This document shows, one piece after another, positions 1 through 51,571 of a stretch of DNA of 64,000 nucleotides. This stretch comes from Anthopleura xanthogrammica. Its lineage: Eukaryota > Cnidaria > Anthozoa > Actiniaria > Actiniidae. The translations under genes and the position numbers were made by a program. Numbering within the stretch: position 1 is the first letter of the stretch; every line of letters begins with the position of its first letter. Location of the stretch: assembly GCA_964019055.1 (NCBI GenBank), contig OZ025213.1, positions 10,076,583-10,140,582 of the forward strand, in the 5' to 3' direction. A model generated the notes under the pieces. It saw only the letters and a list, made by a program, of their open reading frames with translations. It ran no database searches and was not told the origin of the DNA.

Positions 1-3000
1 TAAATCTCAAACTACTTTGATGGAGAAAGAAACTTTTATTTTTCAAAGTCTTCCAGGCACTCAGCAGTTTGCTACAGTGACACTAAAAAGTGGATCAGAT
101 TTCAGAGCGCCTCAGAATCTAAGCTTAAGCGTAGGTACTCTCGATCTCAAAAACGGTGTTCTCTTACGAGGAAGATTTATCGATATCAAAACACAGAACT
201 TGCTTATAGGCAGAGGGGCTTCGTTATCTACCAGTAACATCATTGCTGTCAAAAGATACAAAGGAGAAGGAATTTCATCTGCTAATGGTGGATCTGGTGG
301 TGGTCATGGTAGTACAGGTGGATTCTCTAGCGGCATGGAAAGAGGAGGGGCAGCCTACGGCACTATTTACAACCCTTTTTATCCTGGAAATCCTGGTGGA
401 GATGGACGTTATTCAAATTCTGCTGGAAAGGGAGGTGGAGTGATCAAAATAACTGCAGAATACGTCTGGAATAACGGTTTTATATCTGCAAATGGTGGGA
501 GCGCGTCTACTGGTTCAAATGCTGGCGGTGGAAGTGGAGGAAGTATATCTCTTCAAGTAACAGGATTGCTCAAGGGCAGTGGAACAGTTTCTGCAAATGG
601 TGGTAAAGGAGAAGGATCAGGTGGTGGAGGGGCAGGTGGTCGAGTTTCTGTACATCTCAGTGGCAAATATATCTTCATTGGTAAAGTTGAAGCGTTAGGT
701 GCTCTTATGTCTACGCCTCATCGATCTGGAGGACCGGGAACTGCATACATTGAAGACGTACGATATAAACTACCTTTCAATCAAATACATATAGATAACC
801 AAGGACAAGATCTTAAATATGTCACCTTAGACGAAAGCATTTCCAAATGTGAATTTGATGAAGTGTACATGCGTAATAAAGCTTCCTTAAGATTAGCCGT
901 TGGTTCTCATGTACATCGTGAACTTTTAATTAGAAAACTTCATGGTGACCGGAAAGGCCTTATTCATGCCTATGCAAATCACACAGTACACATTGAATCA
1001 CAGCTATCCGTTTCGAAGCCACCAGTTAATATCAAGGTAGAGAGCGGGGGTGAAGTAGTAATGGCCCTAAAGTCGTACGTTGTTGGTAACTCTAACATTA
1101 CAGTAGACTTAAATGGAACACTGTCGGGAGTTCGAGAGCTTTACATCACTCAAAATAGAGTTATCAAGCTTAATAGGGCAGCCCATACTTCCAAGGGAGG
1201 CAATTCCCCAAGTACCTTTCATTTCTCTGTACTTAAGCTGTACAGTGGCAGTTCATTCACTATGGAAGATATAACCGCGGTTAGTATTGTAGTTGGAAAT
1301 CTGAACATTAAATACAGGGCGACATTATCTGGATATCACTTTGATATTCTTGCCTCGACAATAGACATTGAGACTGGTGGCCTTCTAAGCTGCGCAGGAG
1401 ATAACAAGGCACGTAAAGCGGTACCACCAAAAGCAAATTCTATGCTTCCAGTTGGTGCCGGTGCTGGACATGCAACCGCAGGGGGTAGTGGAAGCGGTGG
1501 CCTTGGTGGTCCCTATTATGGTTCACTCTTTTATCCAAAAGATCCTGGAAAATCTGGAGGTAAAGGAACCAACCGAGCCTCGGGAGGCAATGCTGGAGGA
1601 TACGTAATCATAAAAGCCGGTTCTCAAATTATCAATGATGGTGTAATAACTGTAGCAGGAGGAACTGCTGCAACTGGAAGTGGGGCTGGAGGTGGAAGTG
1701 GAGGAAGCTTGCTTTTGACTACATATTTGTATACAGGTAAAAATAATAACAATGTCAATGTAAACAAAACCTTTTAGAAAAAAAACTCAGAAAAAAAGGT
1801 GGTCACATCAGACGAAATAGCTAAGGAGTTGTTGCAAAAGAAATTATCGATTATTCAGACACGATGTTATAACCGCTATCCTTGAAGTGCGACCCGCAAC
1901 GTTTCTAATTGATGTCTCGTTTGCAAACTAGCATTTCGACGGCCGTTTTTGAAATAACTTGATAAGAAAAAAATTAAAATAAAAAAACGGAATTCAAGAT
2001 TTTAATCCTCTAATCGCCTGAAATCTTTAATTCAATCTAAAGTTTCTCTCAAAAATCTAATTTTTCTAGTTTTGTTCTTTGATTGACGGCCGTGGAAATA
2101 CTAGTTGGTAAACAAGACAACAAATTTCACGGATAATTATAAGTGTCTTTAAAATTCAGGAAATGCTGTAGTATGCTGTAGTATGCTGTAGTATAAACAA
2201 AGCCGGAATTTTGTTATGATGAAAAAATGTTTTTTTTTAGGATCTGGAGTGGTCAGCTCAAACGGTGGTGATGGAGGCGGCATTGGAGCAGGTGGTGGTG
2301 CGGCCGGTCGAATAGCAATCTATGCAACATTATTCACATATCGAGGATCATTCTTGACATATGGAGGTACGTCTACACAGGGTTCCCATGGAGGACCAGG
2401 TACCTTGTTTGTAAGGGATATACGTTCATTGCGCCCTTATTCCATGCTGCGCATAGATAATTTGATGCGGTCACTTAAGGATACCGTTATACTAGATGAA
2501 GTTAATAGAAACTCTTACGAATTCTCAGAAGTTGTTATTTTGAGACGTGCTTCTTTAACCATGGTTACAAAGAATAGGAAAACGTCCTTGAAGATGGATA
2601 GACTAAAGGGGGACAGAACGGGTCTCTTGTTTGCTCAAAATAACCATACCATATTCCTTGAAGCTTCTAATACAGCTCATAGTGTTTCTAAACCCGCTGT
2701 TAACTTACGGATTGATGAAGGCGGAGAAATGGTGTTTGGAGCTTCTTTATACATCATAGGAGATGGTGCTCAGGGACTTAGCCAGTTACTAGGAGATTCA
2801 TCTTTCATTTTGAATGGTCGATTGACTGATGCAGCAAATCTCTACATTAGCAAGAGTTTAAAGGTACGTTTTGGTAGCCACGGACATTCATCCGACATAA
2901 TTAATGGCAAGCAGGTAATTACATCCGCTGGCAGTTTTTCACTGGCAAAGCTAGAAATACAGGATGGTGCCGAAATGTTCTTTGACTATTCTGCTGGAAT

Positions 3001-6000
3001 ACGATGTACAGTTGGTGTAATTCATATGAAGTACGGCTCAAAAATAATTTCTGACAGATATGACGTTCGATTGACTACTTTGCTGATGGAAGCAGGCAGC
3101 CAGATGACGGCTTCTGGTTATATAAGGCCTACACCGGATGTCGGCCCTACTATTCCAAGCTCTTGTTTAGGATCAGGAGGAAGTTACGGAAGTCGTGGTG
3201 GAAAAGGTAAGCTCAAACAACCATCTGCAAATAACAGTAAGAGCAATAAGAGTAACCATTAGGATAAAGATGTATTTTTGGGCAAGATGTTGTCATAAAT
3301 TGGATTGATACGTAGTAGTTTGTTTCGAGTTTATAAACCTTAGAGAAAAAACTCAAAAACTTAGAGGAAAAGAGAAAAAACGATCTGTTTAATCTTTAGT
3401 TGCTGTTTTTCGTAATGTTTTTAATAATAAGTCATTACTTTTAAATTTGGAAATAAGTAAGAAAGTATTTTTTTTCAAGGGCACAGAGGAGATGTAAAAG
3501 CACCTTACGGAACATTGTTTAATCCTGGTGACTATGGTTCGCACGGCTGTCCGGGACATTCAGATGGTGGGAAAGCTGGCGGGGTGATGCATATCAGTGT
3601 AGGTGACGAGCTTTATCTGGATGGAACACTTGAAGTAAACGGTCAGAGCGCAAGCTCGGGTTCAAACGCTGGTGGAGGAAGTGGTGGAAGCATATTGATA
3701 TCAACTGGTCGCTTCAATGGTCATGGTACGCTTAGTAGCAACGGAGGGAATGGCAATGGTGCTTTGTCAGGAGGTGGTTCTGGTGGCAGACTCGCAATTT
3801 ATACTCGTGCCAGCAAAAATAAATTCCTAGGTGTTTACTCAGCAGTTGGAGGTCAAGCAAATAAAGAACTAGCCGTATATTCTGGCGGTCCAGGCACAGT
3901 CTATCTTGAAGACATAAGAAATGATAAGCCGTATAGCCAGTTAAGAATTGATAACAAAAACCGACCTTGGTCCCACTTTGTTACACTTGACGAAAGCCGC
4001 CTTAAATCATATACCTTTGATGAAGTACATTTGTTTAGAAATTCTTCAATACACATGATAGAAAATGGCGAGTACCTTAATTTGACGATCAACAAAATAG
4101 TTGGCGACCGAACTGGCCTGGTTCACATGCACAGAAAACAGTTACTTAAGGCAGAGTACAAACCAACATCCTTCACTTTAACAAGGTAAATAGTTAATTT
4201 CCAATCGTATCCTTTTTGAAAAAAAGTTTGTGTTAAAACTTTTTATTCTTATTTTTGCTCTTTTTACAAATAATGACGATATAACGATGAGAATGTATTT
4301 GGTTAAGGCTAACAAATCATTATGCACGATGCCCCACTGTACTGTTGGCATACAAGTACTAGAAGGATTCTGGACTCTCTATACGCGCAACCTAAAATTT
4401 TGCACGGACTTTACGATTTTTTGCAATTAAAAGTATTTTCTGAAAGCTAAAAACTGAAAACATCCATAGTTTTTTGAAAATATATTCACAATGTTCATGA
4501 TTTCAGAGATTTAAAAAAATTGCTTTAAACGACATTCGACCATGCTGCATTTGCAAAATTTTCGGACTTTTAGAAATTCATCAACATCGCTTAAAAACAC
4601 ATTAGACTCTGGAGATAATAAACTCCCAAAACCGTGTCTCAGATTTCAATAACTATTTACAGTCTATATTAGATCAGCCGCTATTTCGTATCAAATTTGT
4701 ATGATAGAGTTTTGGATGTAAACCGTTAAAAACCAAGCGATATAATTAAAAAAATCGCAGACACCTTTATGTTTATCATGATCAAATGATTTATCAGCTA
4801 GCTTTCAAAGTTTGTTTTATTTATTTATTCAGTTTTATTTTTAAATTTCGCTGCATGGGCAGGGCAACCCCACAAAGTTTGGGTCCGATCCGATTAAATC
4901 TGAATAAACTGGAACATTTTAAACGAGCAAATTTGCCTCTCTACAAACTCCGAGAAAAACACGGTTATCATATCTTTGTTTTTGTTTTTACGATTTCCAC
5001 AGAACTGCAGCAAACTTTAGGCTTGACAACGAATCTGCAGCAATTATGGCAACAACAGTTAACATAGTTGGACTTGCACAAGTAGCATTCGTTTGGAATG
5101 GAAGACTTATTAATGTTCGGCATCTGCGTTTAGCGCATGGCCGTCAAATCAAAGTGGACTGGCATGCTCATACCGCAGGTATTCGTGATGGAGTGTACGG
5201 ATTTATCGATCCTGATGGCAGCTTTACATTTGCTTCACTTGAGTTTGGCAGCGGTACTGTTATCAAATATCCTCCTCCAATGGGAGTACACATAACTGCT
5301 GGATTTTTGGTAGGTTTTCAAATATTCTGGTCTTGAAACAAGATACAAATGCATTTATTTTAAGAAAAAAATACTTTGAAATTAGTTATTAGTAATACCT
5401 TCTATTAACAGACGTTAGGACGTAAATCCTTCATCGGATTAAATTAATTACATTTTATTTGAACACGATGTCATTTAGTTTAATTCTTAAATACTCTTTG
5501 ATATCTTCTTATAGGACATTAAATTTAACAGCCGCTTTGAAGCAGAATATTTTGAAATCGAAGCGACAGATTTTTATCTTGAACCGGATGCTGTGCTTTA
5601 CTGCAAGGGACGTGGCTATACATCTACAACATCAGGATCTGGTTCGCATTCATTTAATGGTGGTTCAGGTGCAGGACATGGTACTGTTGGAGGAAGTGGT
5701 GGATCAGTTACTGGAGGCAAGGTCTACGGATCAATATATGAACCAATACTTCCAGGTGCCCGTGGTGGATGGGGCCCCATTGCACAAGGTAGTCGAGGAG
5801 GTGGCCGAATAAGAATTAAAGTCGGCTACGCTTTCATTCTTGATGGAATTTTAAACACCGATGCCGAGGATGTACTTGCCGATTCAGGTATGAACTCCCT
5901 AAAAACAGTTTTTAAAGAGTTATATGCTCATTAACTCACATAATAATGAAGTACCGGTTCTTTTTTCAGCCAGTGGAGGTGGGAGCGGAGGAAGTGTATG

Positions 6001-9000
6001 GATTAATACAGGGTACTTGCGAGGGCATGGTAGCGTGCTAGCAACGGGTGCAGCTTCTAATATTCATAGATCGGCTCGAGGAGGTAGTGGTTCAGGTGGC
6101 CGCATCGCTGCTCACATTCAAATGAAGGATGAATATCGAGGAAGTTTTTATGCTCTTGGAGGCGTTGGGTCTGGGAATCAACATGGTGGGTCAGGAACCG
6201 TTTACATCGAGGAAGCAAGAGGTAATAAGTTCTATCGTCGATTGTACATAAATAACCAAAATGCAAAGCCAATGAAGGAGTTCAAACTGGATCAAAGAAA
6301 CCCGCGATCTGTTAGATCAAATGGCACCGAAGAAAATAGTGCTGACTATGCATTTGATGAACTAATGCTTGAGGGACAGGTACGAACATTTTTCTTTGAC
6401 ACACGTTTTCTCGTTTTTTTTGGAAATATTTCTGGACTTCTATACTTACTGATACTTAAATTAAACGTACTTGGAATGACTACTTTGAAAACATTTTTTT
6501 TTTCGTATTAAATATATTTTTTTCAAACTTAAAACTTTTTACCCTGAAACAACCTATTAGAGTATAGTTTTCCACACAAAAAATGTTTTTAAGCACTAGA
6601 ACTGCAAATACGTTTCTTTTCTGATGTTCTGTGTTCCGTAGTTATGACCTGACCAGGGTAAGGACCCAATGTTATTGACTTTAGTTCGTGGATGTGCGGG
6701 AGTATTGCTTATGGACTCAATACCTGGGTGTCTGTTAAATTCGGTATTAATCATTTATTGTTTGTACTTTAATGAAATGAAAGATAATGGGGTTTTTGTT
6801 TAATTAAATATGAAATAAATAATGGTGGTACTGATGTTGTTTTTTTTTTCTTGTTTTTTTTTTTTCAATTATAGGTTTTATTCAGGATCGCAAGCTCAAG
6901 TTTAAAGCCTTCAGTTACAATACACACGGTTATCAGTGATGGCCTTTCAACCATGCACATTCAACGGCAACATAAGTTTTTCATCGAATACGACGAAGTG
7001 ACAATGAGACGTTCGTATCCTCCAATAAACTTTAAAGTTGATTACGAGGGAGAGCTGTTTTTAGTGCCAGATTTTCATGTTTCAGGTTTAATAAACCCTG
7101 CTTTAGAACTAAATGGCCGAATCACAGGGGTGTCTAATCTTACCATAACGGAGAACAGACTGTTTGCTGTAGGGTGGAATGCCAGCAGTGCGCTAACAAA
7201 AAAAGGCAATTACACAGAGGAACCTGTTGATGGGCAGCTTGCCTTTGGAGTTTTAATATTGGAATCAGGCTCACGACTTCGCTTTGAAAAGAATATTAAT
7301 TTGGAAGCAGACACTCTACATATGAGAAAGAACACACTTTTATCAGGTAGTCCAATCGTTATGACTTGTGGGGAAATGCTCCTTGAAGGAGGATCAAACA
7401 TAACGACTATAAGACAAGGCCCTAAAGCTGGAAAAGGAACATCGCCAGGAATAGCACTAAACAATGTTGGTTCTGGAGGAGGCCATGGTGGCCAGGGGGG
7501 TCCTAGTGTTTATACTAAGGGCAGCGTCGGCTACGGATCTTACGTATATCCAGTGCATCCAGGAAGTGGAGGAGGAGGATCAAATGGAGGAAGAGGAGGA
7601 AGCACAATTAAGGTAGTTGTCGCGAATCAAGAATCAAATGTAGCGATAGTACACTCGCTTTTCACCTCTTGGGTCTCGTGCACCATTCCTGACCCTCGGT
7701 ATCACATAGGAATAGTATTTGTTGGCAACCCCTTTATTTCAGTTATTTTTTCGTTTTTCTTCCTCCGAAAGCTAAATTCTAATCTGATCTGTAATGTTTA
7801 TGTAGATTTCTTGTCCAATTAAGTTGAGGTTTTGTTTTTTTGAGGGTTTTTTTCTTTGTTTTTCCTTTTCTTTATGAAATATTTATCAAAACATGAACAT
7901 TTTCCTTTTTTCACAGATGGAAATAACGCGATCATTTCATCATGATGGAGTTATCGAAAGCGACGGCGACAATGGCAAATCTAATAGCGGTGGTGGTAGC
8001 GGTGGTAGTGTTCTCATCAAGGCTACACAATTCTCAGGACACGGCAATATATCAGCAAACGGAGGTAACGGGCATGGCAAAGGTGGTGGTGGAGCTGGAG
8101 GCCGGATTGCCGTACATGTTTCTTGGCTAAGGGAGTACGCAGGGATGTATACAGCTTATGGTGGCTTTGGTTTCAAAGCCGGTGCGTCTGGTACCGTCTA
8201 TTACACCGATACCAACAGTGGTTTGTCTCATCGACCTGTAATTAAGGTTAAAGGAAACAAAACTGAGTATGGCGACGGATTTAGAAAGCTTATCATCGAT
8301 AATCAAAACAGAAATCCTGATCTGGCAACAATTATTATTAACGAAAATACTTCATATTATGAAGTAGATGAACTCGAGGCCAAGAACAACGCCGTACTTC
8401 ATATACATGGGGATCATGCGGTCTTAGTTGCTCATAAGTTCTCCGGTGATCGGACTGGCCTTCTGCATTTAAGAAGTGGACAGAAGATGTTCGTAGAAGT
8501 TGTTGAGTCAGAAAAAGGTTACACTGTTGCGCCGGTTAGCTACAAAGTTGAAAAAGGAGCAGAAATAGCTTTTCCTTCCTCTCTAACTCTTCTTGGAAAA
8601 CGCTGTACCTTTGCTGGGTTTGTTGTCGGCGTATACGACTTGATAGTAGCAGAGGGATCTGATGTTGTGTTTTCGTCAACTACGCAAACCGGAATCAAAG
8701 AAAACGGTACATTCCAAGTTCTTACGTCACCGGGGAATATTACATTTCCTGAAGTTTATGTGCAAAAGGGATCCCGTTTAGAATTCTCAAAGATTACGGA
8801 ATCGCTAGTTTTTACTGCACTTATCTTTAGAATTAAATATCACAGTTTGGTAAACATGAATCACGGAGAAATCGATTCTGCATGGGTCTGGCTTGAAAGC
8901 GGTGGCCAGTTAGTCCTCGAAGGCACTGGTTATCTTAATGAATCTGGCCCAGGAAGAGGAAGTACTAATAGAAATGTTGGTACAGGAGCAGGGCACGGAG

Positions 9001-25799: not shown

Positions 25800-25860
<61 letters not shown>

Positions 25861-31800: not shown

Positions 31801-34800
31801 ATCGATGTTGTCATCGCCTTTGCAGACGCTTGCCAAACATCATTGAATTTGAAAGATTGGCCAGGAAAACAAATGTGTAACTACAAAGTGTTTAAAAACT
31901 CTCCCCTTTCTCCTTGGGTCGGTGTTAAGTGTGATTTCTCTTGCACTTTTGGTCATGCTGATACATCAGGTGAAGGATGTATTTGTAATCCATCGTTTTG
32001 GGGAATGAATTGTGATCAGGTATGTCCAGGAGGCCCTGTTAATAGTTGCCATGGCCACGGTATGTGCTCTGTAAAAACTGGCAAATGCAGCTGTAATTAT
32101 AAATGGCTTTGGAAAAGGGATTGCAGTCAGTGTGCGCTTGGATACCATGGCAAAGATTGTTCAATATCTATTACGGGATCACAAGCGATTGGAGTAGGAT
32201 CAGTTTCTGGTAATGGTCATTTTATAACTTTGGATGGACTTAAAATAAACTCTCAAGCAGCAGGCGAATTTTATGCATACGTATCACAACGCTTGAGGAT
32301 TAGCGTACAAATAAGGCAGGTTAGAAGCGGGGGAGGAGTTGCTGTTAAATGTGCAAGGTTCAGCATTGGAAACACCAGATTGGCAATACACACGAGCTAC
32401 GGATCAACGAGATCTATTGTAATGACTGTCAACGACAAGAGAATAAATACAAAGATTGCAATAAAGTTTGGTTCGTCAGGCTTTATATTCCATAGAGTGT
32501 CTCATGAGAAATTTACAATCGTTGGGCCTGAAAGTTTTAAAGTGGAGCTGTATCATCGTGGTTCACATATGGACATAGCAATGACTATGGATAAAACTGC
32601 CTGTGCTGATGCTTGTGGCTTGCTTGGACAATGCGGATATTCTAAAGCGTTAAACTGTTCGCTAAATGGCATTCGAAGCTTGCACAATTTATCCCTTGTA
32701 ACGCAAGACGTCATTGACAATTTTATTGGCAAATGGACTGTTCCAAAACGTAAAAGCGGCTTTACGGAAATTTTAGAAATTGCTGGAGAAGCTCAAGTCA
32801 TCACTGGAGCTGGAAGTTGTTTGCTGTTTAATCAAACGGCAATCGTGACGCCACCACTTGTAGATATTTTCATCGAAAACCATGTCACTGTCCAGTTTTA
32901 TATTAAAGCTTATGATCCATTTCATTATGGTGGAACTATCATATCTTTCGCCCGAAACGACACATTCGCTGTAACACTTAATGGAACTTTGAGATTGCAC
33001 TTTGGTTTAAAAACATTTAATACCAATATAGCGCTGGAGAAAATGAAGTGGAATCAGATCTCACTTGTCTATCGCAAAATCTCTGGCTTAATACAAATAT
33101 ATGTTATATCATCTACAGGAACAGTAACATTTAGAACATTTGGCATTGGAAGAGGTGCTTTCCCTAAAGGCTGTACAATAGGCATAGCTGTATGGCAAGT
33201 AACTACAGTGAATTCGGTTATCCCAGGTTTTGTTGGAATGATTGATGAACTTGTAATTTGGAAAAGACGTTTCGACTATGTCATGATTCAACAGTATTGG
33301 CAAGTTAATTTAAAGGCTTCTTTTTCCGGAATTGATTCCTTATGGAAATTTAATGATGGAATGGGTTACACTGCTAAAGACTCTGTAGGATTGCATAACT
33401 TCGAACTAGCTCGACCCCCTTGGAACACACCAGTATTTATATCTTCTGATTTAAATCTGCAACTAGGAAGCAATGATACAGAAGCAGTGTTTTCTAACAA
33501 GACTCTCGAAAACATTGCAAAGACAGTCTGTTCGAATATCTTTTTGTCAAGTACCTTCAGTGAACAGTGCGCAAACAACACGGGAAATACTGGATTTTAC
33601 TATCAAGATTGTTTGACTGATGTTGCAGCTACAGGAACGTTGAATGCTGCCATTGGAGCAACCGTTTCTATGGCAACAGAGTGTCGGTCTGCTTTAAACC
33701 TTACTTACCTTCCCGGACAACAGCTTTGTAATATGTTTCCCGATCATCGCTACGGAGATTGGGTAGGCAATAACTGCAGTATGAGATGTGTCAATGGCGT
33801 CTTTAGAAACAACAAATGCATTTGTGACACTGGCTACTGGGCTGCAGACTGCTCAGTGGAATGCCCAGGGGGAGCTGCTAATGCTTGCAATGGGCACGGA
33901 GAATGCGATTTAAATACTGGTACATGTATTTGTGCTCCAAACTGGCGAGGCGATGACAAATGTAAATCTTGTTCCAAAGGCTGGATTGGCCATTCTTGTT
34001 CCATAGCTGTTTCAAACCCTGTGAAAAACACCACGATAGCCAGTACATCAACTCAAGTGTGTAACATTTTAGAAAATGGATTTGTTGCGGGATTTGATGG
34101 GTCCATGTTTACCTTTAGTGTGGTTGGAGAATTCTTAATGATCTCTTCGTCCAAGTTGGAAATTCAAGTTCGTCAAGTACCATGTTATTCTGATACTGTG
34201 TGCCTAAATGCACTTGCATTTTCGTATCGTGATATCAAACTCAGTGTTCATGCACCTTATGCTACAAACCAGGTTCCAATATGGCACGTGAACGGATACG
34301 TTTTTAGAGATGAACATGCTTATGAGTTGTTACAAGCTGGAATCGTAATTCATGAAACATCTGTGAAGACAAATACTATTGATATTGATGGACAAGTTAC
34401 TTTAAAAATAACGTTTTATGATCGTTACCTGAGCATCGAAGCAAAATCTAAATTGAAAGTCTGTGCTACGTTTAGAGGCTTATGCGGATCATGTAAAAGT
34501 TACATCAAAGACAATAATGTTACCACAAGTACCAACAACAGCACTTCTCCAAAAGTGGATTCAGTTCTGTCGGAGTTGCAGAAAGTGAACAGATCGAAGA
34601 CAACAGTTGATGATATTGTCAAGAAAAATTTCAAAGTAACAACTAAGGAGGGAGACGACTCAGGTTCCATAATAATTCTTCAAAAGAAAATACACAAGGA
34701 GAAACGAATTGTTTACGGTGGCATCTACTGCCTGAATTTCAATTTTTCTGCAGTTGTATCAGATCACGTGACAAACTTGTTTCGTAACAATAGTGTCACT

Positions 34801-37800
34801 ATACAGCTAATGTCAAAATCATGCGATCCTTATACGTGCGGCGGCGTTATTTTGTCGTACGCAACAAGTACTACCTTTTATATCAGCAACCATGGTACAG
34901 TCAAAGTCGGTATAGGAATTCACGTTTATGACACTGGTCTAGTAACGGACTCCAATAAATGGAACATGATATCCGTGGTATTCGTTCGCGATAAGCTTAA
35001 AATGTCTGTATACCTAACTAACTGTTTGGGGCTTGTGCGGTTCAAGAGTTTCATAATCAAGATAATTCCGTTCAAGGATGGAGGGACATTAGCTATTGGT
35101 CTTTGGCAGCCATCCTCTGGAGCTGATAGTGTGAAGGTAAATCATGTATTTAAAGGAGAAATAGACGAAGTTAATGTTTGGAATAAAGCCTTTGACTATG
35201 TTATGATCAAGCAAAGTTGGTCAGCAAATATTCAAGTTAACGCGCCTTCGCTTACTGGTTTATGGAAATTCAATGAAGGAGAAGGAGTGATGGCCAAAGA
35301 TTCCCTTCACGAAAATGATCTGTTTTTCCCTCAGTATCCTTTAAATCCACCTATTTGGATTTTCTCTGATGCGCCAATAGATCTTGTCCTTGGAACAAAT
35401 TTGAATAAGCAAAACAAGACAATAGCGTCAGTTGCTCAGCAAACCTGTCATAGTTTTATATTTTCTGGTCATATCTACAAAGCGTGCTCTGATTTGGGAA
35501 ATGTAACATTGCAATTCTATTTGCGGGCTTGCGTTTCATCAATTGTAAAAACAGCCGAAACCTCTGAAAGTATGGATATTATCATAGCTTTATCAGACGT
35601 GTGCCAAATCAACCTGAATCTTACTGAATGGCCAGCTAAATCTCTTTGCAATGCCTTTCCTGAAAGAGATTTTCCGAAATGGATCGGAAGAAATTGCTCA
35701 ACGCCTTGTATTTTTGGAAAGCCTACTACCACTGATTCAGAAATTTGCGAATGTGATAAAGGCTACTTTGGGAAAAACTGCTCTGGGATTTGCTACGGCG
35801 GAGCAGCCAACACTTGCAATCGACATGGCCAATGTGACAGAGAAGCAGGGAAATGTCATTGCGATATCAATTGGCGTGGAAGTGAAAACTGCACAGCATG
35901 CTCACCTGGATGGACTGGGAGTGACTGTTCCTTTGCCATAACAACGATAGTGACGAATGGTAGAGTGAATAGCGTAGGAGGCATTTCATCACGTGGTCGA
36001 TTAACAACCTTAACAGGCCTGAGCTTTGATGTTCAATTAACGGGAGACTTCTATCTTATTTACTCACCTCAAGTTTCGGTCGAAGCACAAGTGAGAATAG
36101 TGCCTTGTTACCGAGAGTTCTCTTGTATAAATGCAATTGGTATACGTTTGGTTGAGCATACAGTTGTCATCCATGGACCTTATACGTCCGTCGGTAGAGC
36201 AGTCATCTGGGTTGACAACCAAGAGCTGGACATTGACAGAAGGCCTCCAACATCAGAAACAGACGGTTTCTCCATTGCTCGTGTATCCAGTAATCTATTT
36301 GAGTTTAAATGTCCTCTCCTTACTATTTCAATACGTATCCATGGTCGGTACTTGGCCTTAGGTTTAACAGTTTCTCCGACTGTTTGCAATAACTCGACTG
36401 GACTATTGGGTAACTGTCGTGATGACTACCTTATATCCCTACAGCGTTTCGGAGCATTTTCTAATTGTTCAAAAACTGAATCTAGCCCTAAAGACTACGA
36501 GTCAAGAACTATCAACTCAAGCATCCATCAAACTGATACATCAACAATCGAGCATCTATTGCTGAAAATGAAAGTTAGAGCCTGTCATCGTGGAATATTG
36601 GTCAATTCTTATAAAAGCTATAACGAATACCCGGAAGCAAACAGTGCATACGCCTTGTATTTCGAAAATTCAGCTCTACTGTCATCAACTTCGTTTTACA
36701 AAACGTTTCTTACAAATGACATATCCATCGACTTTATGATCAAGGTTCATCACCATGGCGTTATCCTATCGTACTGTAAAACAAATACGTTTTTCATCAC
36801 GAGCTTCGGCGGAAACCTTACAATGTATTTTGGAGACGATGTATTCCATACAAACATTAAGATCGAAACAAATGTGTGGACGCAAATAGCTCTTGTTTAC
36901 AGGAAATTGACAGGCTATGTTCAAATTTACTACTTCACATCTACTGGAATTATTCACAGATCTGACTTCAGAACACGGTTTGACATTTTTGAGCCTGGTG
37001 GTGTGATTGCTTTAGCAGGTTGGATACCATCATTGAATGGCTCAGGACCGCAGCCAACATCCTCGTTTTTTGGGCTTATTGATCAAATGCGGATATGGAA
37101 TCACCATTTTCATCCAGCTGTTATCCAACAAATACGTAATCGAGAATTTCTTGTCAAAGCCAAAGAACTCAAGCATGCGTGGAGATTTAATAAAGGCGAA
37201 GGACTTGATGCTATTGATACAACTGGTGACATCGAGATGGTTATGACAACCCCACCATGGCGACAGCCAAAATGGAAGTACTCAGACGCAAAATTAGATA
37301 AACCTTTTTACAAGAAAACGCCTTCTTACTCGTTCAAGAATCGATCTATACAGGCGAAGGCGGAGGAATTTTGTAGCAAGCTTTTGATGCATCGTTCGCT
37401 GAAGGAACATTGTGGAGGACTTGGTACTGGTATTAAAACATTTTATTACAGATCTTGTTTAAGAAAAGTAGCGCTCACCGGTAAATTGGAAATGGTCCTA
37501 GAAATTATTATTGATTTTTCGGATTATTGTCAGAACGTATTAGTCCTGCCCACCTGGCCAGCGCAATTTCTGTGTAATGAATTTCCAAGTCTTGATTTTC
37601 CAATATGGTTTGGACCAGCTTGCGAAGAAAAGTGTGTATTTGGGCATTGGAATTCTCAAAGTGGCTGCGTTTGTGACAAAGGGTTTTGGGGAAGCGACTG
37701 TTCAAAGGTTTGTCCTGGAGGTGCAAGGCAGCCATGCAATAATCATGGAGTATGTGATCAAAAAACAGGATTGTGCATATGTGAAGTGAATTGGAAAGGA

Positions 37801-40800
37801 ACACCAACATGCTCAGGTTGCTCAACTGGATGGACTGGTGGTGACTGTTCTTTAACTAAATCTATATTGTTATCAAGTGCAAATGTAGTTTCCATGGTTT
37901 CAGGAAGTGGACAGCATATTACATTTGATGGCAACAGTTTCCCGTTCTTGTATCCAGGAGAATTTACACTCATCTCAAATTCTGCCTTGCAAATTGTACT
38001 TCAAGTTCGTCAGGTTCCGTGCAATATGCATTCCATTTGTGTTAACGCTGTGGCTTTCAGGGTTGCCAATACAGTGGTATCGTTCCATGGTCCTTATACT
38101 TCGAGTGGAAAACCAGTTATTTGGGTTAACAATCACAGGATACTGCTTAATCAACCAGAAACATTTGTAGGACCAGTTGTTCAGGGAGTCAAGATATCAA
38201 TTGTATCCCGTCACCAATATGTGTTGTCATGGCAAGAAATTTTCAAAATCTACATTCGACTTCAGGGACGATACCTTACCGCCAAAATTGCTGTGAATAA
38301 ATCAGTGTGTGAAAACTCTACGGGTATCATGGGATCTTGTGACAAAAATCCTAATAACGACTTTTATGGATTAAGCATATCAAACGCTACACAAAAAGAC
38401 ATCAACGTACAGCTAATGAAGCAACATCATGTTGACGAAAGAAATAGCATGTTTCAATCGAATGGCGGCAATTATAAAGAGACTAAAGTGCCAAATGGAG
38501 CTATGTATGCCCTTTTATTTAACAACAGCGGAGCCTCAACAGGACAACTATTCAATGGATTTCCAGAACATTCTGATAAAACAGTAGAGATTCTTTTTAA
38601 ACCTTTTAAACAAGGTGGAACTGTTTTGGCCTACTCATTTTCAAAGACATTTGCACTTAGTATTGACTATACAATCAGGATGCATTTAGGAACGTATGTC
38701 ATCAATACTGGTATTGTTGTTGCAATCGGCCAATGGAGTCATGTGTCAATTGTGTGGCATATCAAGACAAACATTTTAGAGATTTATCATTTCGACTTTC
38801 ATGGTAGCTTACAACGAAGACTTTATTCTTTCTTTGAAAACCCTTTTCCAAGTGGTGGAGTTCTTTCAATTGGACAGTGGGAACTTTCTCCGGGGGATAC
38901 AGAAAAAGTAACAGACGCTGTATTTTGTGGTATTGTCGACGAAGTGCGCATTTGGAAGAGAGCCTTCGATCCGGTACTTATTCAACAGAATTTGGGTATG
39001 AATGTTTTACCATCAGATCCAGGCATATCTGCTTTATGGAAGTTCAACGACGGCGAGGGTAACGTTGTTCATAACTTAATCAGTGACGAACACTTACTTC
39101 TACCTCTGACACCATGGAGACAACCAACATGGGTATATTCTGACGCCAATGTAAAAATCAATGTTAGTTTATCCGAGGATCCCTTTTACACCGTGTTTCC
39201 AAGCACTGCGTTTGAAATTAAAGCCAAAGGTCTGTGCTCATATATATTTAACCGGACACAACTGTTTTCATCTTGCAAAACTCTTAAGTCGGAATTAGAA
39301 TTTTACCACTTGGTATGTTTACAGAATGTTGGAGCAACAGGTGATTTGGGAGCCTCTCTGAGTGCTGTTCTCACATTTGCGGACCACTGCCAAGAAGCAT
39401 TAATTCTTTCACATTGGCCAGCACAGAGACTATGTAACGATATTCCAGGAATCGCCTTCCCTGACTGGATTGGTGAGAAGTGCGATGTGAAATGCGTCTT
39501 TGGTAAAGCAAACCACTTAGATAAAAATGTTTGTAAATGCGACAATGGATATTGGGGAGAAGAATGTGATAAGACTTGCCCAGGAGGTATTTTACATCCA
39601 TGTGGTGATCACGGATACTGCGATAATCTATCTGGGGAATGCAAATGCGATATTAATTGGGATGGTAACGAAAACTGTACTTCATGTAGCCAAGGTTGGT
39701 ATGGAACAAAATGTCAATATGCCTTTAGCCCAGAAATAGCAAGAAAGAACGAGAGTGTGGCAGTTGCATCGATAATTGGACATGGATATTACACCACGTT
39801 CAATGGGGTCAGTTATACAGTCGAGTCTAAAGGCGAGTTTTTCCTTTTGCGGTCAATGATAAACAATTTTGTCGTCCAGCTACGCCAAGGAATTTGTATT
39901 CAGCAAAAGAAATATTATCCAATTTGCACAGTTGGCTTTGCTTTTACTTACAAGAACTTAAATGTTGTAGTGCGTGCACCCTTTACCACAGTCGCAAGAC
40001 AAGCAACCATAAGACCATTGGTATGGGTAAACAAGCATCTGGTAGCTGTAAACCACCTCACAAAACTTTCTTCTAATTTCAACATGACGCGGATTTCTAG
40101 CCTTTCGTATTCCATCACCGGCCCCCATGGTCTTAAGTTTGAGCTTCGAGTGAGTAATAGTCTCTCTGTAACGTGTTCCATACCGCAATTTTTATGTGCT
40201 AATTCATCTGGTTTGCTTGGTTCCTGTTCACTGCCAACTGGAAACGTTTTTAACAATAATTATGTAGATAAAAACGTAAAAGCATTAAAAAGTCAATCTG
40301 CCATTCAAGAATCAGAGTCACTGTTCGTATACAGGTACATGAACTTTAGAGAGCCCCGGCAACTAGAAGGAAGCGGATTTAACCTTATATTCAGAGACAG
40401 CTTCGTGACTTCAAAGCCTATGTACCTACAAAACGTGGAAATACTTACCTTGGAAGTTTTGGTGAAAGTCTACTCATTTGGAGGAATCATTCTTTCATAT
40501 GCTCACGACAATTCGTTCGCCATTATAAATGAAAGGACTTTGAAAATATCTTACCGTGGTCAAGAATATATTACTGGGCTAACGTTAGAAATCCAAGAGT
40601 GGAATCAAATATCTTTGGTGTTCAATCAGTTCCTAGGTACATTGAAAGTATATCTCTTTAATTCACTTGGCACAGTTAAGATTCGTGTTTTCAAACTGGA
40701 CACTAAAGTCTGGAGTCAAAGTGGGGTACTCGTGCTAGGACAATGGCAGTTCACGAAAGACAATGCTATACCTCCAAACTCAAGCTTCTTTGGTGAGATT

Positions 40801-43674
40801 GATGAAATGAGGATTTGGAACAGAAGAAGTAATGTTGATCTTGTGAAGGATGGCTGGAAACTAAATGTAAGACCCGATTTGTATAAGGATCTGCTGCATT
40901 TGTGGAAGTTAGACCAAGTAGAAGGTGGTGTGGTTAAAGATATTGTCGGGAGCTGTCATCTTTACTTCAAAACGTTCCATAAGCCTCAATGGGGGTTCTC
41001 AGGCTCCAACATGGCTACACAGAACCGAGATGAAGTGACGTTTCCTAACAGTACATTCAAACGAAAAGCCAAATCGTTTTGCTTCGCCGTGATACTTTCT
41101 GGTCCATTGTTCAAAAACTGTAAAGCACTCGGAGACGGAATTGCCCAGTTTTTCTATACCAACTGTTTATATGAAGCCAGCATTTCCTTGGATCATCAAT
41201 CTGCTATCTATTCGGTTACATCATTTGCCGACTATTGTCAAGCAGCTCTAAGGCTCACAGATTGGCCTGCACAAGAACTGTGCAATCTATTTCCCGAAGA
41301 AAGGTTTCCTTTTTGGATTGGTAAGCAATGCGGAACGTCGTGTATTTTTGGTTATCCCGTTATATCTACAAATTCTACGGATGAGTTAAGGTGCAAATGT
41401 GAAGAAAGTTATTGGGGTGGAAACTGTCAATATCTTTGTCCTGGAGGCCTACACAATACATGTAATGGACATGGAGTTTGTGATGCTGCAAACGGTTTTT
41501 GTAGCTGTGAACCACATTGGAAAGGTGGTGAAAATGAAACAATCAACTTTTTCCAAAATGCCCTACCGTGTTCAAGGTGTTCTGAAGGCTGGACTGGAGG
41601 TGATTGCAATATCGCCGTAACAGCTAATATCTCTGATAATGGACTATTGATTAACTATGGAGACCCTCACTTCACAACTGTGACAGGGGCTAGCTATAAC
41701 CTTGAAACTCCGGGTCCCTTTCTTCTAATTAATACAACCAATATCACCGTGCAAATTTTACAAGTTCCTTGTAATAACAGAGTCTCTTGTCGGCGAATCT
41801 CAGAACTGACTTTGAAAACAACATCATTTAAGTTATCTGTCAAGGCGATTGATTTATTAACTGTAGACACACTGTTGACTGCTGAAAGCAACAAAGAACA
41901 CCCGCTTTCACAATCCAAACAATGGAGGAATCTTACTACGGATAAACTATCGTTCTATCGCTGGCCAACACCTAATATCCTGGAAATAGTATTACTTGGC
42001 GATGAGAAAATTAATATCTTGTTCTATAACGGAACCCTTGGAACCGCCATTGAAATTCCACATCATAAAAGTAGCCTATCAGATGGACTAAGTGGAACTA
42101 GTACAGGACGCTGGATAACTAATTTACAGTCTGAACAAGCGGTTGTCAATTCTTCTATTTTGAATCAAGACCTTATAGATAGAACTCTGTCAGCTCGAGA
42201 AAGACTATCTTTAGACGATAACATTTTGGCAAGTACATATTCTAAACATTATTTCAATGGTGCTGGGTTCATGCTTGGCTTCACTGACAACCATCTTTCG
42301 ATTGATGCAAGCGGAACATTTCCGACCCTTGATGAATTTACTATCGAGCTGTGGGTTTGCCTTGTCAACAAGAATTCGGATATATATAAACTTTGTTCGT
42401 CCATTAATGAAACACAAAACGTTACTCATTTTCCAACAACAGAGCAACATTCTCTGTTTTCGATTAGTAATGGAATTGATGATTTTGCTCTTCTCTACAA
42501 CGGGGAAGTCGTTGTGTTATGGAATGATCGAGAACTGCAAACGGGGCTATCCGTAAATGAAGGGGAATGGACGCACCTGACCATAACATGGAGAGCAAAC
42601 GATGGTCGTATGCAAGTGCTGAAAACCACTTCAAAAGCAAGTTACAAATCTGTCAAGTACGGAGTGCAAATGGGTGGCAAACTACAGCTGGTTGGTAAAC
42701 TGGTACTTGGTAAATATCTTAGGGGAACTGAAACTTTTAAAGATTACAATCTAAGAGGCGCATTGGATGAGTTACGTATGTGGCAGTACGCTAAAACCGA
42801 AGAAGAAATTTCAAAATTAATGAACTTCAAGTTTGACTACTATATTGATGGCCTTGTTCTTAGTATTCCATTTGATGAAGGATTTGGGAAGACTGTTGGT
42901 GCTTTCGTGTACAACCTAATGGAAGAAGGTTCTCTTGAAACCAGTGGGACAAACCAAAGCAATGTTAAAATAATACATCTTGAGGCAAACGAAGAAGGTC
43001 CACCACCTAGATGGTTACCATCAGGTGTACTGTCAACTCCATTAACCAACTACAGTCTAGTTTTCTTTAACCAAAGTCTGCGAGAAGAAGCGTTCAACCT
43101 TTGTCATAAATGGTTCTATAGTGGAATTGTTCAACAGCTTTGCAGTTCTCGGCTTGTGTCACAAGCAAGATTTCATTTTGAGGCCTGCCTTGCAGACATC
43201 GCTGATGGTGGCAGCATTTCGCATTACAAGCTTTCAATAAGTTTATTTGGTTTCTATTGCCAAAAAGTCCTCGATATCGAAGAATGTAAGCTGTATGGAA
43301 CATATGATGCATTCCCTCCCTGCTATAAGGAGGCATATGATACTGATTTTCCGATTTTCTTGGTTACCATAACGACGGCCGTGATTGTCGCAACAGTCAT
43401 TCTTTGTTGCTGCATAATATGTTGCTGTCGTAGAAGAAAAAGAAAGGACAAGCAAAAGAAGGAAGTGTATGTCGAAGAGCCTTCAGGTCACAATTACACA
43501 TTTGGTGCTGCAGAATATCCTTATGGCAATCAAGACGAAATGGAGTTAAATTCATTGGGAGTTGAGATTCAAATAAAAACTGAACTACATGACGATGAAC
43601 TGCCAAACGGAGAAACCAACTTGGTACTCAACTTGCATGACGATGAAGAGGAGGATAGTGAAACGAAAGTTTAA
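1..43674 (+). CDS. Giant single-pass membrane protein: Gly-rich repeats, EGF array, nine EGF-VWD-LamG modules (5' partial)
   Basis: Twenty-four exons join with GT-AG borders and matching phases; the summed coding length from base 2 to the stop is 35,814 nt, exactly divisible by three, giving 11,937 residues in the window. The frame is open at the left edge, so the N-terminus and signal peptide lie upstream. Order: Gly-rich repeats (to ~18,225), EGF-like array (18,226-24,716), FGYEN-type domain (24,717-25,505), nine EGF/VWD-like/LamG-like/Cys-rich modules (26,107-43,347), one membrane helix (43,348-43,428) and a cytoplasmic tail. Most introns are phase 1 or 0. I infer a surface adhesive or matrix-like protein. 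I do not recognise a named orthologue. It could be more than one transcript, but no internal terminal exon or start is evident. Confidence 0.85.
2..1736 (+). CDS. Giant gene exon 1 of window (partial): Gly-rich repeats
   Basis: Open to the window edge in this frame. The donor is ACAG|GTAAAA, phase 1. It encodes a first Gly block, the GGRVSVHL strand region, an IDNQ motif, a degenerate GDRKGL motif near 945-962 and a second GAGAGH block near 1,456. Confidence 0.85.
1911..2121. mobile_element. Foldback (MITE-like) element in intron 1
   Basis: Bases 1911-1946 and 2086-2121 are imperfect inverted copies of about 36 bp, both containing ACGGCCGT. They enclose about 140 bp of AT-rich sequence without coding content. 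Confidence 0.7.
2163..2192. repeat. Three copies of a 10-bp tandem repeat
   Basis: Unit ATGCTGTAGT repeated three times just before the acceptor of exon 2. Confidence 0.9.
2241..3206 (+). CDS. Giant gene exon 2: Gly-rich repeat
   Basis: Acceptor TTTTTTTTAG, phase 1 in and phase 1 out (GAAAAG|GTAAGC). Starts GSGVVSSNGG, has GGGAAGRIAIY, LRIDN, YEFSEV, GDRTGLL and GSGGSYGSRGGKG, which matches the repeat order of exon 1. Confidence 0.9.
3480..4185 (+). CDS. Giant gene exon 3: Gly-rich repeat
   Basis: Phase 1 in, phase 2 out (ACAAG|GTAAAT). It completes the block YGTLFNPGDYG, then GGGSGGSI, GGGSGGRLAIY, IDNKN, YTFDEV and GDRTGLVH. Confidence 0.88.
4186..5002 (+). other. Intron of 817 bp
   Basis: AT-rich intron with no supported coding content. 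The short open frame from about 4,786 only reads into the next exon in the wrong frame. Confidence 0.8.
5003..5309 (+). CDS. Giant gene exon 4: beta-rich part of a Gly-rich repeat
   Basis: Acceptor TTCCACAG; phase 2 in, phase 0 out (TTTTG|GTAGGT). Begins R-TAANFRLDNESAAIM, equivalent to APVNFKVDEGAEIVF of the other repeats; contains WNGRLINVRHL. Confidence 0.85.
5515..5887 (+). CDS. Giant gene exon 5: Gly block
   Basis: Acceptor TTATAG, phase 0 in, phase 1 out (TCAG|GTATGA). Encodes DIKFNSRFEAEYFEIEA, then GAGHGTVGGSGG and YGSIYEPILPG. Confidence 0.87.
5970..6379 (+). CDS. Giant gene exon 6: Gly block to YxFDE motif
   Basis: Phase 1 in, phase 0 out (ACAG|GTACGA). Contains SGGGSGGSVWI, GGSGSGGRIAAH and YAFDELMLEGQ. 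The phase-0 exit after this last motif recurs at exons 10 and, approximately, 14. Confidence 0.88.
6380..6874 (+). other. Intron of 495 bp
   Basis: No coding content seen. T-rich tract just before the acceptor ATTATAG. Confidence 0.75.
6875..7612 (+). CDS. Giant gene exon 7: Gly-rich repeat
   Basis: Phase 0 in and out (ATTAAG|GTAGTT). Starts VLFRIASSSLKPSVT; carries FKVDYEGELFLVPDF, LNGRITGVSNL and GSGGGHGGQGG. The usual GDRTGL motif is decayed (VISDGLSTMHI). The 304-bp intron that follows shows nothing of note. Confidence 0.85.
7917..12819 (+). CDS. Giant gene exon 8: four Gly-rich repeats in one 4.9-kb exon
   Basis: Acceptor TTCACAG, phase 0 in, phase 1 out (TAAAG|GTATGT). It holds four uninterrupted repeats; the GAGHGG-type blocks start near 8,979, 10,212, 11,454 and 12,680, so the period is about 410 residues. 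Recurrent motifs are GGGSGGSI, GGRIAIH, YEFDEM, GDRTGQ, VEVVESETN, PSEFHI and YGSVYRP. Neighbouring repeats are cut by introns that are absent here. Confidence 0.92.
12935..13180 (+). CDS. Giant gene exon 9: Gly block
   Basis: Acceptor GAATTAG, phase 1 in and out (GGAG|GTAAAA). Reads GGGCLLWIVSKHLHLDG, GGGGSGGSVL and GGAGGRIGIHV with no stop. It continues exon 8 and joins exon 10 in frame. Confidence 0.88.
13366..13613 (+). CDS. Giant gene exon 10: linker to YEFNE motif
   Basis: Phase 1 in, phase 0 out (CAA|GTAAGT). Encodes GTFRSVGG, GAAGTVYKYE, YRELKYN, VDNEQ and FYEFNEMQ. Confidence 0.88.
13614..14136 (+). other. Intron of 523 bp with a dispersed-repeat motif
   Basis: Holds ACCAATCAGAGCGCGCG near 14,005-14,021; its exact reverse complement occurs in the intron near 22,405-22,425. 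Otherwise AT-rich and non-coding. Confidence 0.75.
14137..14386 (+). CDS. Giant gene exon 11: GDKTG segment
   Basis: Acceptor ATTACAG, phase 0 in, phase 1 out (CAAAG|GTACTA). Encodes VEHHSTLIFYHP, VTGDKTGSIKL, VFVVEST and DEYAEIVFPTEV. Confidence 0.88.
14387..14837 (+). other. Intron of 451 bp with a C15 tract
   Basis: Contains a run of 15 C at 14,527-14,541. A similar G16 tract lies at 16,076-16,091 and a C14 tract at 51,004-51,017, all in introns. No gene is seen. Confidence 0.8.
14838..15080 (+). CDS. Giant gene exon 12: MTGVEKL segment
   Basis: Acceptor CTTTTAG, phase 1 in and out (GAAAG|GTAATG). Encodes GRMTGVEKLVIERNGYIEF and ends NIADLTIKKG. Confidence 0.88.
15173..15574 (+). CDS. 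Giant gene exon 13: Gly block
   Basis: Acceptor TTTGTAG, phase 1 in and out (GGAG|GTAATG). Encodes GGKLMIETKYISIKG, GPGAGTGSAGG, YGSLFLPSQPGSGGG and GGGSGGTVNI. Confidence 0.88.
15701..15996 (+). CDS. Giant gene exon 14: GGRI to FSEV segment
   Basis: Acceptor TTTAAG, phase 1 in, phase 0 out (GCG|GTAAGT). Encodes GGGSGGRITVIL, GSPGTVYIK, VDNQHR and YRFSEVRLL. Confidence 0.88.
15997..16645 (+). other. Intron of 649 bp with a G16 tract
   Basis: G run at 16,076-16,091; the rest is AT-rich and non-coding. Confidence 0.75.
16646..17303 (+). CDS. Giant gene exon 15: last complete GDRTG segment
   Basis: Acceptor GAATAG, phase 0 in, phase 1 out (AATG|GTAAGT). Encodes ATGDRTGVFYV, APVNFEVKQKGGLV, IEGHLYGIEEL and GAGHGGVGGYGE. 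Unlike the other repeats it has extra cysteines (CFGCG, WGCSKC). The next intron (319 bp) is non-coding. Confidence 0.88.
17623..17818 (+). CDS. Giant gene exon 16: Gly block
   Basis: Acceptor TTATAG, phase 1 in, phase 2 out (CAAG|GTATGT). Encodes GQNTAYEDPCTASMAGSGG, MELDGSLDANA and GGGSGGTISITAR. Confidence 0.87.
18006..19981 (+). CDS. Giant gene exon 17: end of Gly-rich zone and first 18 EGF-like units
   Basis: Acceptor TTCATAG, phase 2 in, phase 1 out (AGAG|GTTTCT). The Gly-rich zone ends at about 18,225 and EGF-like units begin (CxCxxGYYGxxC type). By hand I count about 18. From ~18,690 they fall into a four-unit pattern starting with (G/M)CP, with starts near 19,072, 19,459 and 19,843. 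Confidence 0.9.
20073..20399 (+). CDS. Giant gene exon 18: EGF-like units
   Basis: Acceptor TATTTAG, phase 1 in and out (CCAG|GTACAC). Encodes GHCNSSYNPPVC, GWMGPGC, CYSGSGC, GWRGSVC and opens the next unit. Confidence 0.9.
20717..21886 (+). CDS. Giant gene exon 19: EGF-like units
   Basis: Acceptor TTTTAAG, phase 1 in and out (AAGG|GTAAGT). Starts by completing an EGF cut in exon 18 (GWKGVGCHIPDCPG). It holds about 12 EGF-like units with the same four-unit order. The short intron before it carries an ACAACA-rich simple repeat near 20,618. Confidence 0.9.
22370..22570. mobile_element. MITE-like element with ~26-bp terminal inverted repeats
   Basis: Left arm about 22,370-22,395 and right arm about 22,545-22,570 are near-perfect inverted copies (TTTAGTATAAATA... 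and its complement). The interior repeats GATAATCACCTTTT and has no transposase frame, so it is non-autonomous. Confidence 0.75.
22593..22662. repeat. Strong hairpin, 23-bp arms
   Basis: Bases 22,593-22,615 pair with 22,640-22,662 with one mismatch around a 24-base loop. Weaker pairing extends outward, suggesting a second foldback element abutting the first. Confidence 0.8.
22773..25056 (+). CDS. Giant gene exon 20: last ~20 EGF-like units and start of FGYEN domain
   Basis: Acceptor TTTAAAG, phase 1 in, phase 2 out (TGAG|GTAAGC). EGF-like units continue to ~24,716, the last ones being irregular (CKPRYTGSNCELC, NGHWNGSTCEEC). From 24,717 comes a domain with FLDCLKRFDNGTVTAWFGYE, VGPDNRF and LLPGKHHRVF. 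Confidence 0.9.
24717..25505 (+). other. FGYEN-type domain spanning exons 20-21
   Basis: About 154 residues after splicing, with the order C-x3-F/GT-x-AWFGYEN, VGPDNRFTWP, QPTKLLPGKHHRVF and LPLVWVLANPP. I recall a similar 'HFGYxNxN ... GxxNxF ... QPTxFxPG ... WxL' beta-sandwich pattern from surface proteins of bacteria and other organisms, but cannot name the family with certainty. Confidence 0.6.
25385..25505 (+). CDS. Giant gene exon 21
   Basis: Acceptor TTTTAG, phase 2 in, phase 0 out (AAT|GTGAGT). Encodes R-VDNMLPLVWVLANPP and ends NISKNN. The 121-nt exon keeps the frame between exons 20 and 22. The 328-bp intron before it shows nothing. Confidence 0.87.
25506..26106 (+). other. Intron of 601 bp with (TAA)n microsatellite
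   Basis: A clean TAA/ATA repeat at about 25,800-25,856 continues imperfectly to ~25,910. No coding content. Confidence 0.9.
26107..27939 (+). other. Module 1 (EGF-VWD-LamG-Cys)
   Basis: First of nine modules. It lacks the WIG-x2-C lead-in, since exon 22 opens directly at QCVCRDGFWGRDC. The VWD-like part has VQARMVSC in place of VQVRQVPC, and GLWGNC at its end. Confidence 0.85.
26107..28935 (+). CDS. Giant gene exon 22: module 1 and the start of module 2
   Basis: Acceptor TTAACAG, phase 0 in and out (TTCAG|GTAATA). Module 1: paired EGF-like units with GFWGRDC and CPGG; VWD-like part from FITFDGAMYRF; LamG-like part from about GGYALFLNNTG to VGEIDELRIW; Cys-rich tail. Module 2 starts near 27,940 (WIGPTC) and is cut inside its LamG-like part. 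Confidence 0.92.
29135..29315 (+). CDS. Giant gene exon 23: middle of module 2 LamG-like domain
   Basis: Acceptor TACGCAG, phase 0 in, phase 1 out (CTAG|GTAAGC). Encodes IFVKIQTVGGTILSYATDE and ends WNLLSVVYRREL, aligning with the uninterrupted copies in exon 24. Confidence 0.9.
29426..43674 (+). CDS. Giant gene terminal exon 24 (14.25 kb): modules 2-9, membrane helix, tail
   Basis: Acceptor TCTATAG, phase 1 in; stop TAA at 43,672-43,674. One uninterrupted frame of 4,749 codons. The WIG-x2-C boundary of each module lies near 30,106, 31,915, 33,760, 35,680, 37,606, 39,466 and 41,314, a period of 603-642 residues. Each module has: CVFG and GYWGxxC, a CPGG-x4-CNGHGxC EGF, GWTGxDCS; a VWD-like part (GEFxL, VQVRQVPC, GLLGSC); a concanavalin/LamG-like part (GGxILSYA, WNQISLVY, FxGxIDEVRIW, LWKFNEGEG); and a tail (FYYRSCL, SFADYCQ, WPAQxLCN). 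Confidence 0.95.
31915..33759 (+). other. Module 4, VWD-like part missing its cysteine pair
   Basis: At VQVRQVPC-x4-5-C this copy reads VQIRQVRSGGGVAVKCA, so one of the two conserved cysteines is lost. The rest of the module is normal. Confidence 0.75.
33760..35679 (+). other. Module 5 with a charged, Asn/Ser/Thr-rich insert
   Basis: Between the VWD-like and LamG-like parts (about 34,500-34,700) lies a low-complexity hydrophilic stretch with NNST and KVDSVLSELQKVNR, much longer than in modules 1-4. Confidence 0.8.
41314..43347 (+). other. Module 9, divergent terminal module
   Basis: The only copy that starts its VWD-like part with the canonical YGDPHF (about 41,660). Its LamG-like part is longer and reads TIELWVCLV and ALDELRMW. 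Its Cys-rich tail leads straight into the membrane helix. Confidence 0.85.
43348..43428 (+). other. Transmembrane helix with cysteine clusters
   Basis: Twenty-seven hydrophobic residues beginning FPIFLVTITT and ending CCCIICCC, followed by RRRKRK, a typical stop-transfer signal for type I topology. The cysteines at the inner face are possible palmitoylation sites (inference). Confidence 0.95.
43429..43671 (+). other. 81-residue cytoplasmic tail ending ETKV
   Basis: Basic start, NYTF and YPYGN tyrosine motifs, acidic end (DDEEEDSETKV). The last four residues fit a class I PDZ ligand (x-S/T-x-hydrophobic). Confidence 0.75.

Positions 43675-51531: not shown

Positions 51532-51571
<40 letters not shown>

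Follow-up and report, generated by a model that had tools for sequence, protein, structure and literature searches.

A 64,000-nucleotide (nt) stretch of the sea anemone Anthopleura xanthogrammica (assembly GCA_964019055.1, contig OZ025213.1, positions 10,076,583 to 10,140,582; C8:10076583-10140582 of the 290-Mb assembly; the whole stretch is hereafter called the window) raised the question of whether one gene could encode a protein of many thousand residues, and what such a protein would be. The gene in the window was confirmed to be real, with a single reading frame larger than first noted, and we infer from the genomic sequence that it is read as one continuous mRNA. It probably encoded a type I membrane protein of ~22,900 residues (~2.5 MDa), acting as a long apical tether or coat filament. 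The original prediction had described a single frame of at least 11,937 residues across 24 exons at positions 1 to 43674. One very long frame was indeed present, and the counts were almost exact for the window (25 exons and 11,957 codons, with 35,872 coding nt); the TAA at 43672-43674 was retained as the end, but coordinate 1 was the window edge, and the gene reached -54372 (negative numbers are window coordinates upstream). The predicted size fell short by roughly half, the gene being cut off at the window edge, and with ~22,886 residues the product would rank, as had been supposed, among the largest animal proteins. Cnidaria are among the phyla reported to have a sizeable fraction of huge proteins in UniProt (PMC11573180).

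For model construction, 60 kb of upstream DNA was added; long frames were identified first, followed by a dynamic-programming splice model that was trained on them and rerun with mutual support from a paralog. The uncurated splice model had 74 exons and 22,977 residues (2,469 kDa, 647 Cys, and 266 N-glycosylation motifs), and hand removal of dubious pieces gave a curated model of 68 exons, ~98 kb, and 22,886 residues, with 67 introns (median 262 nt, longest 8,589 nt, all but the first <1 kb). Counts given below for junction bridging, hydrophobic segments, and codon positions refer to the 74-exon model, and the paralog junction comparison refers to the curated one. The curated gene started at -54372 (a further in-frame Met lay at -54408), its 5′ end being a signal peptide 54 kb upstream of the window. 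Hand curation discarded, as model errors, two tiny exons (42 nt at -47416 and 24 nt at 15625) and the 51-nt intron at 2864-2914; three coding pieces (-18278 to -17672) in long simple repeats at C8 ~10058292-10058952 (window -18290 to -17630), which in one frame read as Asp/Glu runs, were also dropped, and this segment is now intron. Extending the gene into the VWD/EGF/FN3 exons at 50-58 kb was ruled out, because the last exon closed with a membrane helix, a tail, and a stop. The window part of the gene was composed as follows:

1 to 1736 (+): exon, glycine-rich units, predicted beta-helix; 3′ part of a 7,496-nt exon from -5759; no Pfam family
2241 to 3206 (+): exon, glycine-rich unit (51-nt intron 2864-2914 removed)
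3480 to 4185 (+): exon, glycine-rich unit
5003 to 5309 (+): exon, glycine-rich unit
5515 to 5887 (+): exon, glycine-rich unit
5970 to 6379 (+): exon, glycine-rich unit
6657 to 6727 (+): small exon, weakly supported and required for the frame; 0 of 2 junctions bridged by other species
6886 to 7612 (+): exon, glycine-rich unit
7917 to 12819 (+): 4,903-nt exon, four glycine-rich units, predicted beta-helix; 8883-11345 is the AlphaFold-modelled stretch
12935 to 13180 (+): exon, glycine-rich unit
13366 to 13613 (+): exon, glycine-rich unit
14137 to 14386 (+): exon, glycine-rich unit
14838 to 15080 (+): exon, glycine-rich unit
15173 to 15574 (+): exon, glycine-rich unit
15701 to 15996 (+): exon, glycine-rich unit
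16646 to 17303 (+): exon, glycine-rich unit; its 3′ junction is 17303/17623
17623 to 17818 (+): exon, first part of the last glycine-rich unit
18006 to 19981 (+): exon, end of the last glycine-rich unit and start of the EGF zone (~18229); Pfam EGF_TEN 6.9e-59
20073 to 20399 (+): exon, EGF zone
20717 to 21886 (+): exon, EGF zone
22773 to 25056 (+): exon, EGF zone and, from ~24704, an unnamed 'WFGYENKN' linker domain; Pfam EGF_TEN 1.6e-43; PDB teneurin matches
25385 to 25505 (+): exon, end of the linker domain; both junctions match the paralog, 0 of 2 bridged locally by other species
26107 to 28935 (+): exon, EGF-VWD-LamG-helical unit 1 and most of unit 2; Pfam VWD 6.1e-23
29135 to 29315 (+): exon, LamG part of unit 2
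29426 to 43671 (+): 14,246-nt last exon, rest of unit 2, units 3-9, transmembrane helix, and cytoplasmic tail
43348 to 43428 (+): transmembrane helix FPIFLVTITTAVIVATVILCCCIICCC
43429 to 43671 (+): cytoplasmic tail, RRRKRKDK by the membrane and C-terminal ETKV
43672 to 43674 (+): stop codon TAA

Stop-to-stop frames on the + strand reached 4,755, 1,652, 973, 773, and 694 codons, and base shuffling of the 14.2-kb last exon (20 times) gave no frame longer than 138 codons. GT-AG borders were all but assured by the splice-model method and thus carried no weight as proof. Frames or proteins from other species ran unbroken across 41 of the 73 junctions of the model (20 of 26 within the window); some of these matches passed through homologous repeats and not strict orthologs. 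For 53 of the 67 curated junctions, the paralog agreed in both column and phase, and 500 random placements gave a mean of 0.07 and a maximum of 2 such agreements; the paralog model was partly dependent, in that similarity was borrowed from the model of the window gene, though its splice sites were scored locally, and it had 106 junctions (some surely false), one internal stop, and surplus tiny exons. Codon positions 1, 2, and 3 differed from the paralog at 33.8, 24.1, and 62.4%, respectively, over 21,090 aligned codons (the membrane helix was absent from the paralog version used here and present in its open frame); third positions were far more divergent than second ones, which is the pattern expected of translated sequence. 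Junctions 6727/6886 and 17303/17623 had support from neither the paralog nor other species, and the first three upstream junctions, counted from the signal-peptide exon, rested on unit continuity without outside support; a corresponding signal-peptide exon did occur in the paralog, about equally far away (h 4772-5422; next match h 13992).

When exon 7917-12818 was used as query against its own genome, at least 35 matches were obtained, all on C8 or C18 (29 of 82 candidates scored). A tblastn search of C18, the contig that carries the paralog, with an earlier model returned a colinear chain from residues 37 to 22388, which was empty at residues 821-2697, corresponding to the 110-amino-acid (aa) repeats of the window gene; the paralog was colinear with the window gene apart from most of these repeats. 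The 110-aa repeats filled a 2,430-codon frame (L007; C8:10032556-10039845), and the paralog frame there had 650 codons, which suggests that the N-terminal end of the gene grew recently.

From N to C terminus, the protein displayed a signal peptide, a first glycine-rich unit, 110-aa tandem repeats (at least 17 of 109/110 aa, with a 219-aa dimer period and 51% self-identity), ~30 glycine-rich units, EGFs, a linker, nine VWD-LamG units, a helix, and a tail. Only two segments of the model were strongly hydrophobic: the signal peptide and the C-terminal membrane helix. The glycine-rich unit of ~400 aa had 35 profile matches over the whole protein, partial ones counted; a simple EGF motif had 27 matches in the EGF and VWD zones together; and the nine EGF-VWD-LamG-helical units were spaced by 602-643 residues. 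Three repeat zones had been described before; a fourth (the 110-aa repeats) lay upstream. The tail ended in ETKV, which we take to be class I PDZ-ligand-like; an S/T-x-hydrophobic end was found in the window gene, the paralog, and 10 of the 15 homologs with a clear near-terminal helix, but not in Pinctada.

The Pfam scan was applied to exons other than those at 2241-7612, 12935-17818, and 20073-21886 and most upstream ones. In the scanned exons, no Pfam or NCBIfam family matched the glycine-rich unit above cut-off (AgmC, 16 bits against a cut-off of 275). The 110-aa repeats scored 31 bits against Ig_NOMO (cut-off 27.5) with no single stretch passing, and an unrelated viral model also gave 28.7 (cut-off 27.1). 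A PDB sequence search found no match for the glycine-rich profile or for 29428-35400, and a homolog of the 110-aa repeats (P0162) gave two matches at E ~0.4. The EGF zone at 22775-25054 also matched PDB 9ufe 'Tubular mastigoneme protein' (E 2.4e-6; a flagellar hair protein by its title).

The structure of the ~400-aa units was approached with AlphaFold. For stretch 8883-11345, the model was all-beta, confident, and closest to beta-helix adhesins, its modelled stacked beta coils matching solved parallel beta-helices, and the ~400-aa units are predicted to form a beta-helix; sequence identity of the modelled stretch to the solved adhesins was 10-11%. Bacterial relatives of the glycine-rich unit were confirmed at no fewer than eight loci among at least 591 pattern-matched stretches. 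These loci (L027 to L034) came from metagenome-assembled genomes titled Auribacter, Phycisphaerae, 'bacterium', Patescibacteria, Desulfatibacillum, Limisphaerales, Lentisphaerae, and Aminicenantes, and the unit profile matched long frames in all eight (4 to 12 domains each; best E 3e-62 to 2e-197, values obtained with a small database and large composition-bias corrections). Reversed bacterial sequences gave no profile match at E up to 10.

The sequence comparison was also applied to other animals. The glycine-rich zone matched 166 proteins at E<=0.001, mostly unnamed among the best 120 of 166, and organism names among the matches listed were Dreissena, Ptychodera, and Apostichopus. The VWD-LamG query matched 41 proteins, of which the strong ones with an organism name were Actinostola (two), Lytechinus, Nucella, and Pinctada; the weakest six, at E 1.7e-9 to 6.6e-5 and covering 2-6% of the query, included one alphaproteobacterial LamG protein. 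The 110-aa repeats matched two proteins. The homolog models (Actinostola QZH41_005193 and QZH41_003343, Pinctada FSP39_005732, Lytechinus LOC135154217, Ptychodera 'uncharacterized', and Apostichopus 'Tenascin-X') had the identical zone order as far as each extended, but all were shorter than the window gene, and none was named for a studied function among the matches listed. The 7,318-residue Pinctada model contained beta-helix units, EGFs, the linker domain, VWD-LamG units, a membrane helix, and a tail, and it aligned to residues 13904 to 22856 of the window protein; anemone and oyster therefore have this domain order in common across roughly two fifths of the protein at its C-terminal end. 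In a C-terminal-region tree (18 rows, midpoint root), the window gene, the paralog, and both Actinostola proteins fell within a supported 7-row clade, in agreement with the prior placement of this DNA in an animal near cnidarians; a separate supported 6-row clade held unnamed, presumably coral, proteins, and P0152 plus three other rows sat on long branches with less sure placement. The Actinostola models shared the zone order in another cnidarian as far as they reached. As had also been supposed, no named family covered the whole, as far as the exons scanned with Pfam/NCBIfam and the matches listed show. No paper describing or naming this protein was met among open-licence papers, judged by title or abstract start.

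Several observations would speak for separate adjacent genes. The gene was modelled from genomic DNA; the Lytechinus (P0150) and Actinostola (P0148) models start inside the locus; and the EGF/VWD junctions 25056/25385 and 25505/26107 were not bridged locally by other species. All three would suit a beta-helix gene, an EGF gene, and a VWD-LamG receptor standing head to tail and merely read as one. We hold this arrangement to be very unlikely, given that the whole model has one signal peptide and one membrane helix, that the beta-helix/EGF border falls within the single exon 18006-19981, that no curated intron save the first reaches 1 kb, that models from sea anemone (Actinostola), pearl oyster (Pinctada), acorn worm (Ptychodera), and sea urchin (Lytechinus) cross zone borders (those of Pinctada, Ptychodera, and Lytechinus arguing here), and that the paralog retains the zone order together with both EGF/VWD junctions.

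A full-length rod might instead be accompanied by shorter membrane forms from internal promoters, as the sheer gene size and the shorter named models in other species would allow; no second signal-peptide-like segment was seen among the strongly hydrophobic ones of the model (exons outside the model were not searched), and such isoforms seem possible at somewhat less than even chance. Rather doubtful is a further reading, in which the protein would be an adhesive or mucus-like fibre that is secreted or shed and whose helix would serve only for display before cleavage, like the adhesives with which echinoderms and flatworms attach temporarily: marine adhesives often contain VWD and EGF domains, but the basic stop-transfer stretch and the long tails in the gene, the paralog, and the homologs would fit a lasting membrane role.

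The preferred reading is a single membrane-anchored chain. Stacked on one another, its ~400-aa units would form a rod some 200-350 nm long, projecting from the cell surface (taking 0.48 nm per coil, ~12-19 coils per unit, and ~31 units, plus the N-terminal repeats). The C-terminal helix would anchor this rod in the membrane, the membrane-near VWD-LamG array and the distal tip may bind neighbours, glycans, or matrix, and the tail might tie the rod to a PDZ scaffold and thereby to actin. Such an anchored, stacked rod with a putative PDZ-binding tail suggests a mechanical tether or apical coat filament, and the protein would act as a stiff element of the apical surface; Dumpy in insects and usherin-type links on hair bundles are comparable tethers or coats.

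If made as one chain, the protein would rival the largest extracellular proteins known in animals. Its whole architecture was found elsewhere only as pieces in gene models of other animals, and rods like its predicted beta-helix are known chiefly in bacterial adhesins. Parts of the protein have relatives in sea anemones, molluscs, an acorn worm, and echinoderms, which suggests an ancient function at animal surfaces, unnamed in the open-licence literature searched; in anemones, the gene is a candidate for building long apical links or coats. More tentatively, it may belong to an unnamed family of giant, membrane-anchored beta-helix rods that predates the cnidarian-bilaterian split, has a repeat unit also present in bacterial surface proteins (and perhaps acquired through gene transfer), and forms the outermost apical layer or link of invertebrates, several hundred nm in extent.

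Downstream of the giant gene, the window contained a separate VWDE-like gene at 50448-57786 (+) with VWD, teneurin-type EGF, Big_9, EGF, and FN3 domains. Its cysteine-spaced stretch at ~52.9 kb resembled by eye the helical part of the VWD-LamG units, and the two genes may for that reason share ancestry. The start of a peptidase family M13 (neprilysin-like) gene lay at 61312-62181 (+; Pfam 1.3e-25), directly preceded at 61020-61182 by a 15-bp tandem unit (10.9 copies, 95% matches).

Among known systems, bacterial filamentous adhesins and secreted repeat proteins come close, but the window gene is an animal gene with introns, a signal peptide, and a membrane anchor; unlike two-partner-secreted bacterial adhesins, it is eukaryotic, with introns and a eukaryotic-type signal peptide. 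Titin-like muscle giants are cytoplasmic arrays of Ig/FN3, while the window protein has a signal peptide and no Ig or FN3 match in the scanned window exons. Tenascin combines an FN3 array with a fibrinogen-like end; neither was matched in the scanned exons, and one EGF_Tenascin match was below cut-off. VWDE resembles the window protein in having VWD plus EGF domains, but it is secreted and without a beta-helix array, while the window protein has nine VWD-LamG units, a predicted beta-helix zone, and a membrane helix. Teneurins are alike in EGF type (both EGF_TEN matches above cut-off; PDB teneurin-2, 2.7e-16), but they are type II proteins with the helix near the N terminus, while the window protein has an N-terminal signal peptide and a C-terminal helix; Pfam matches of the scanned exons included no YD/RHS shell or NHL propeller family. 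Dumpy has a C-terminal ZP domain, and no ZP match was found in 29428-43671. Drosophila Dumpy is described as having EGF-DPY-EGF repeats, with no mention of a beta-helix, VWD, or LamG, while the EGF zone of the window protein was of EGF_TEN type and its VWD zone was EGF-VWD-LamG. Even so, Dumpy, a 2.5-MDa matrix protein with 78 coding exons that is reported to be linked to mechanical tension (PMC10895422), would be the best analogue we know of the window protein.
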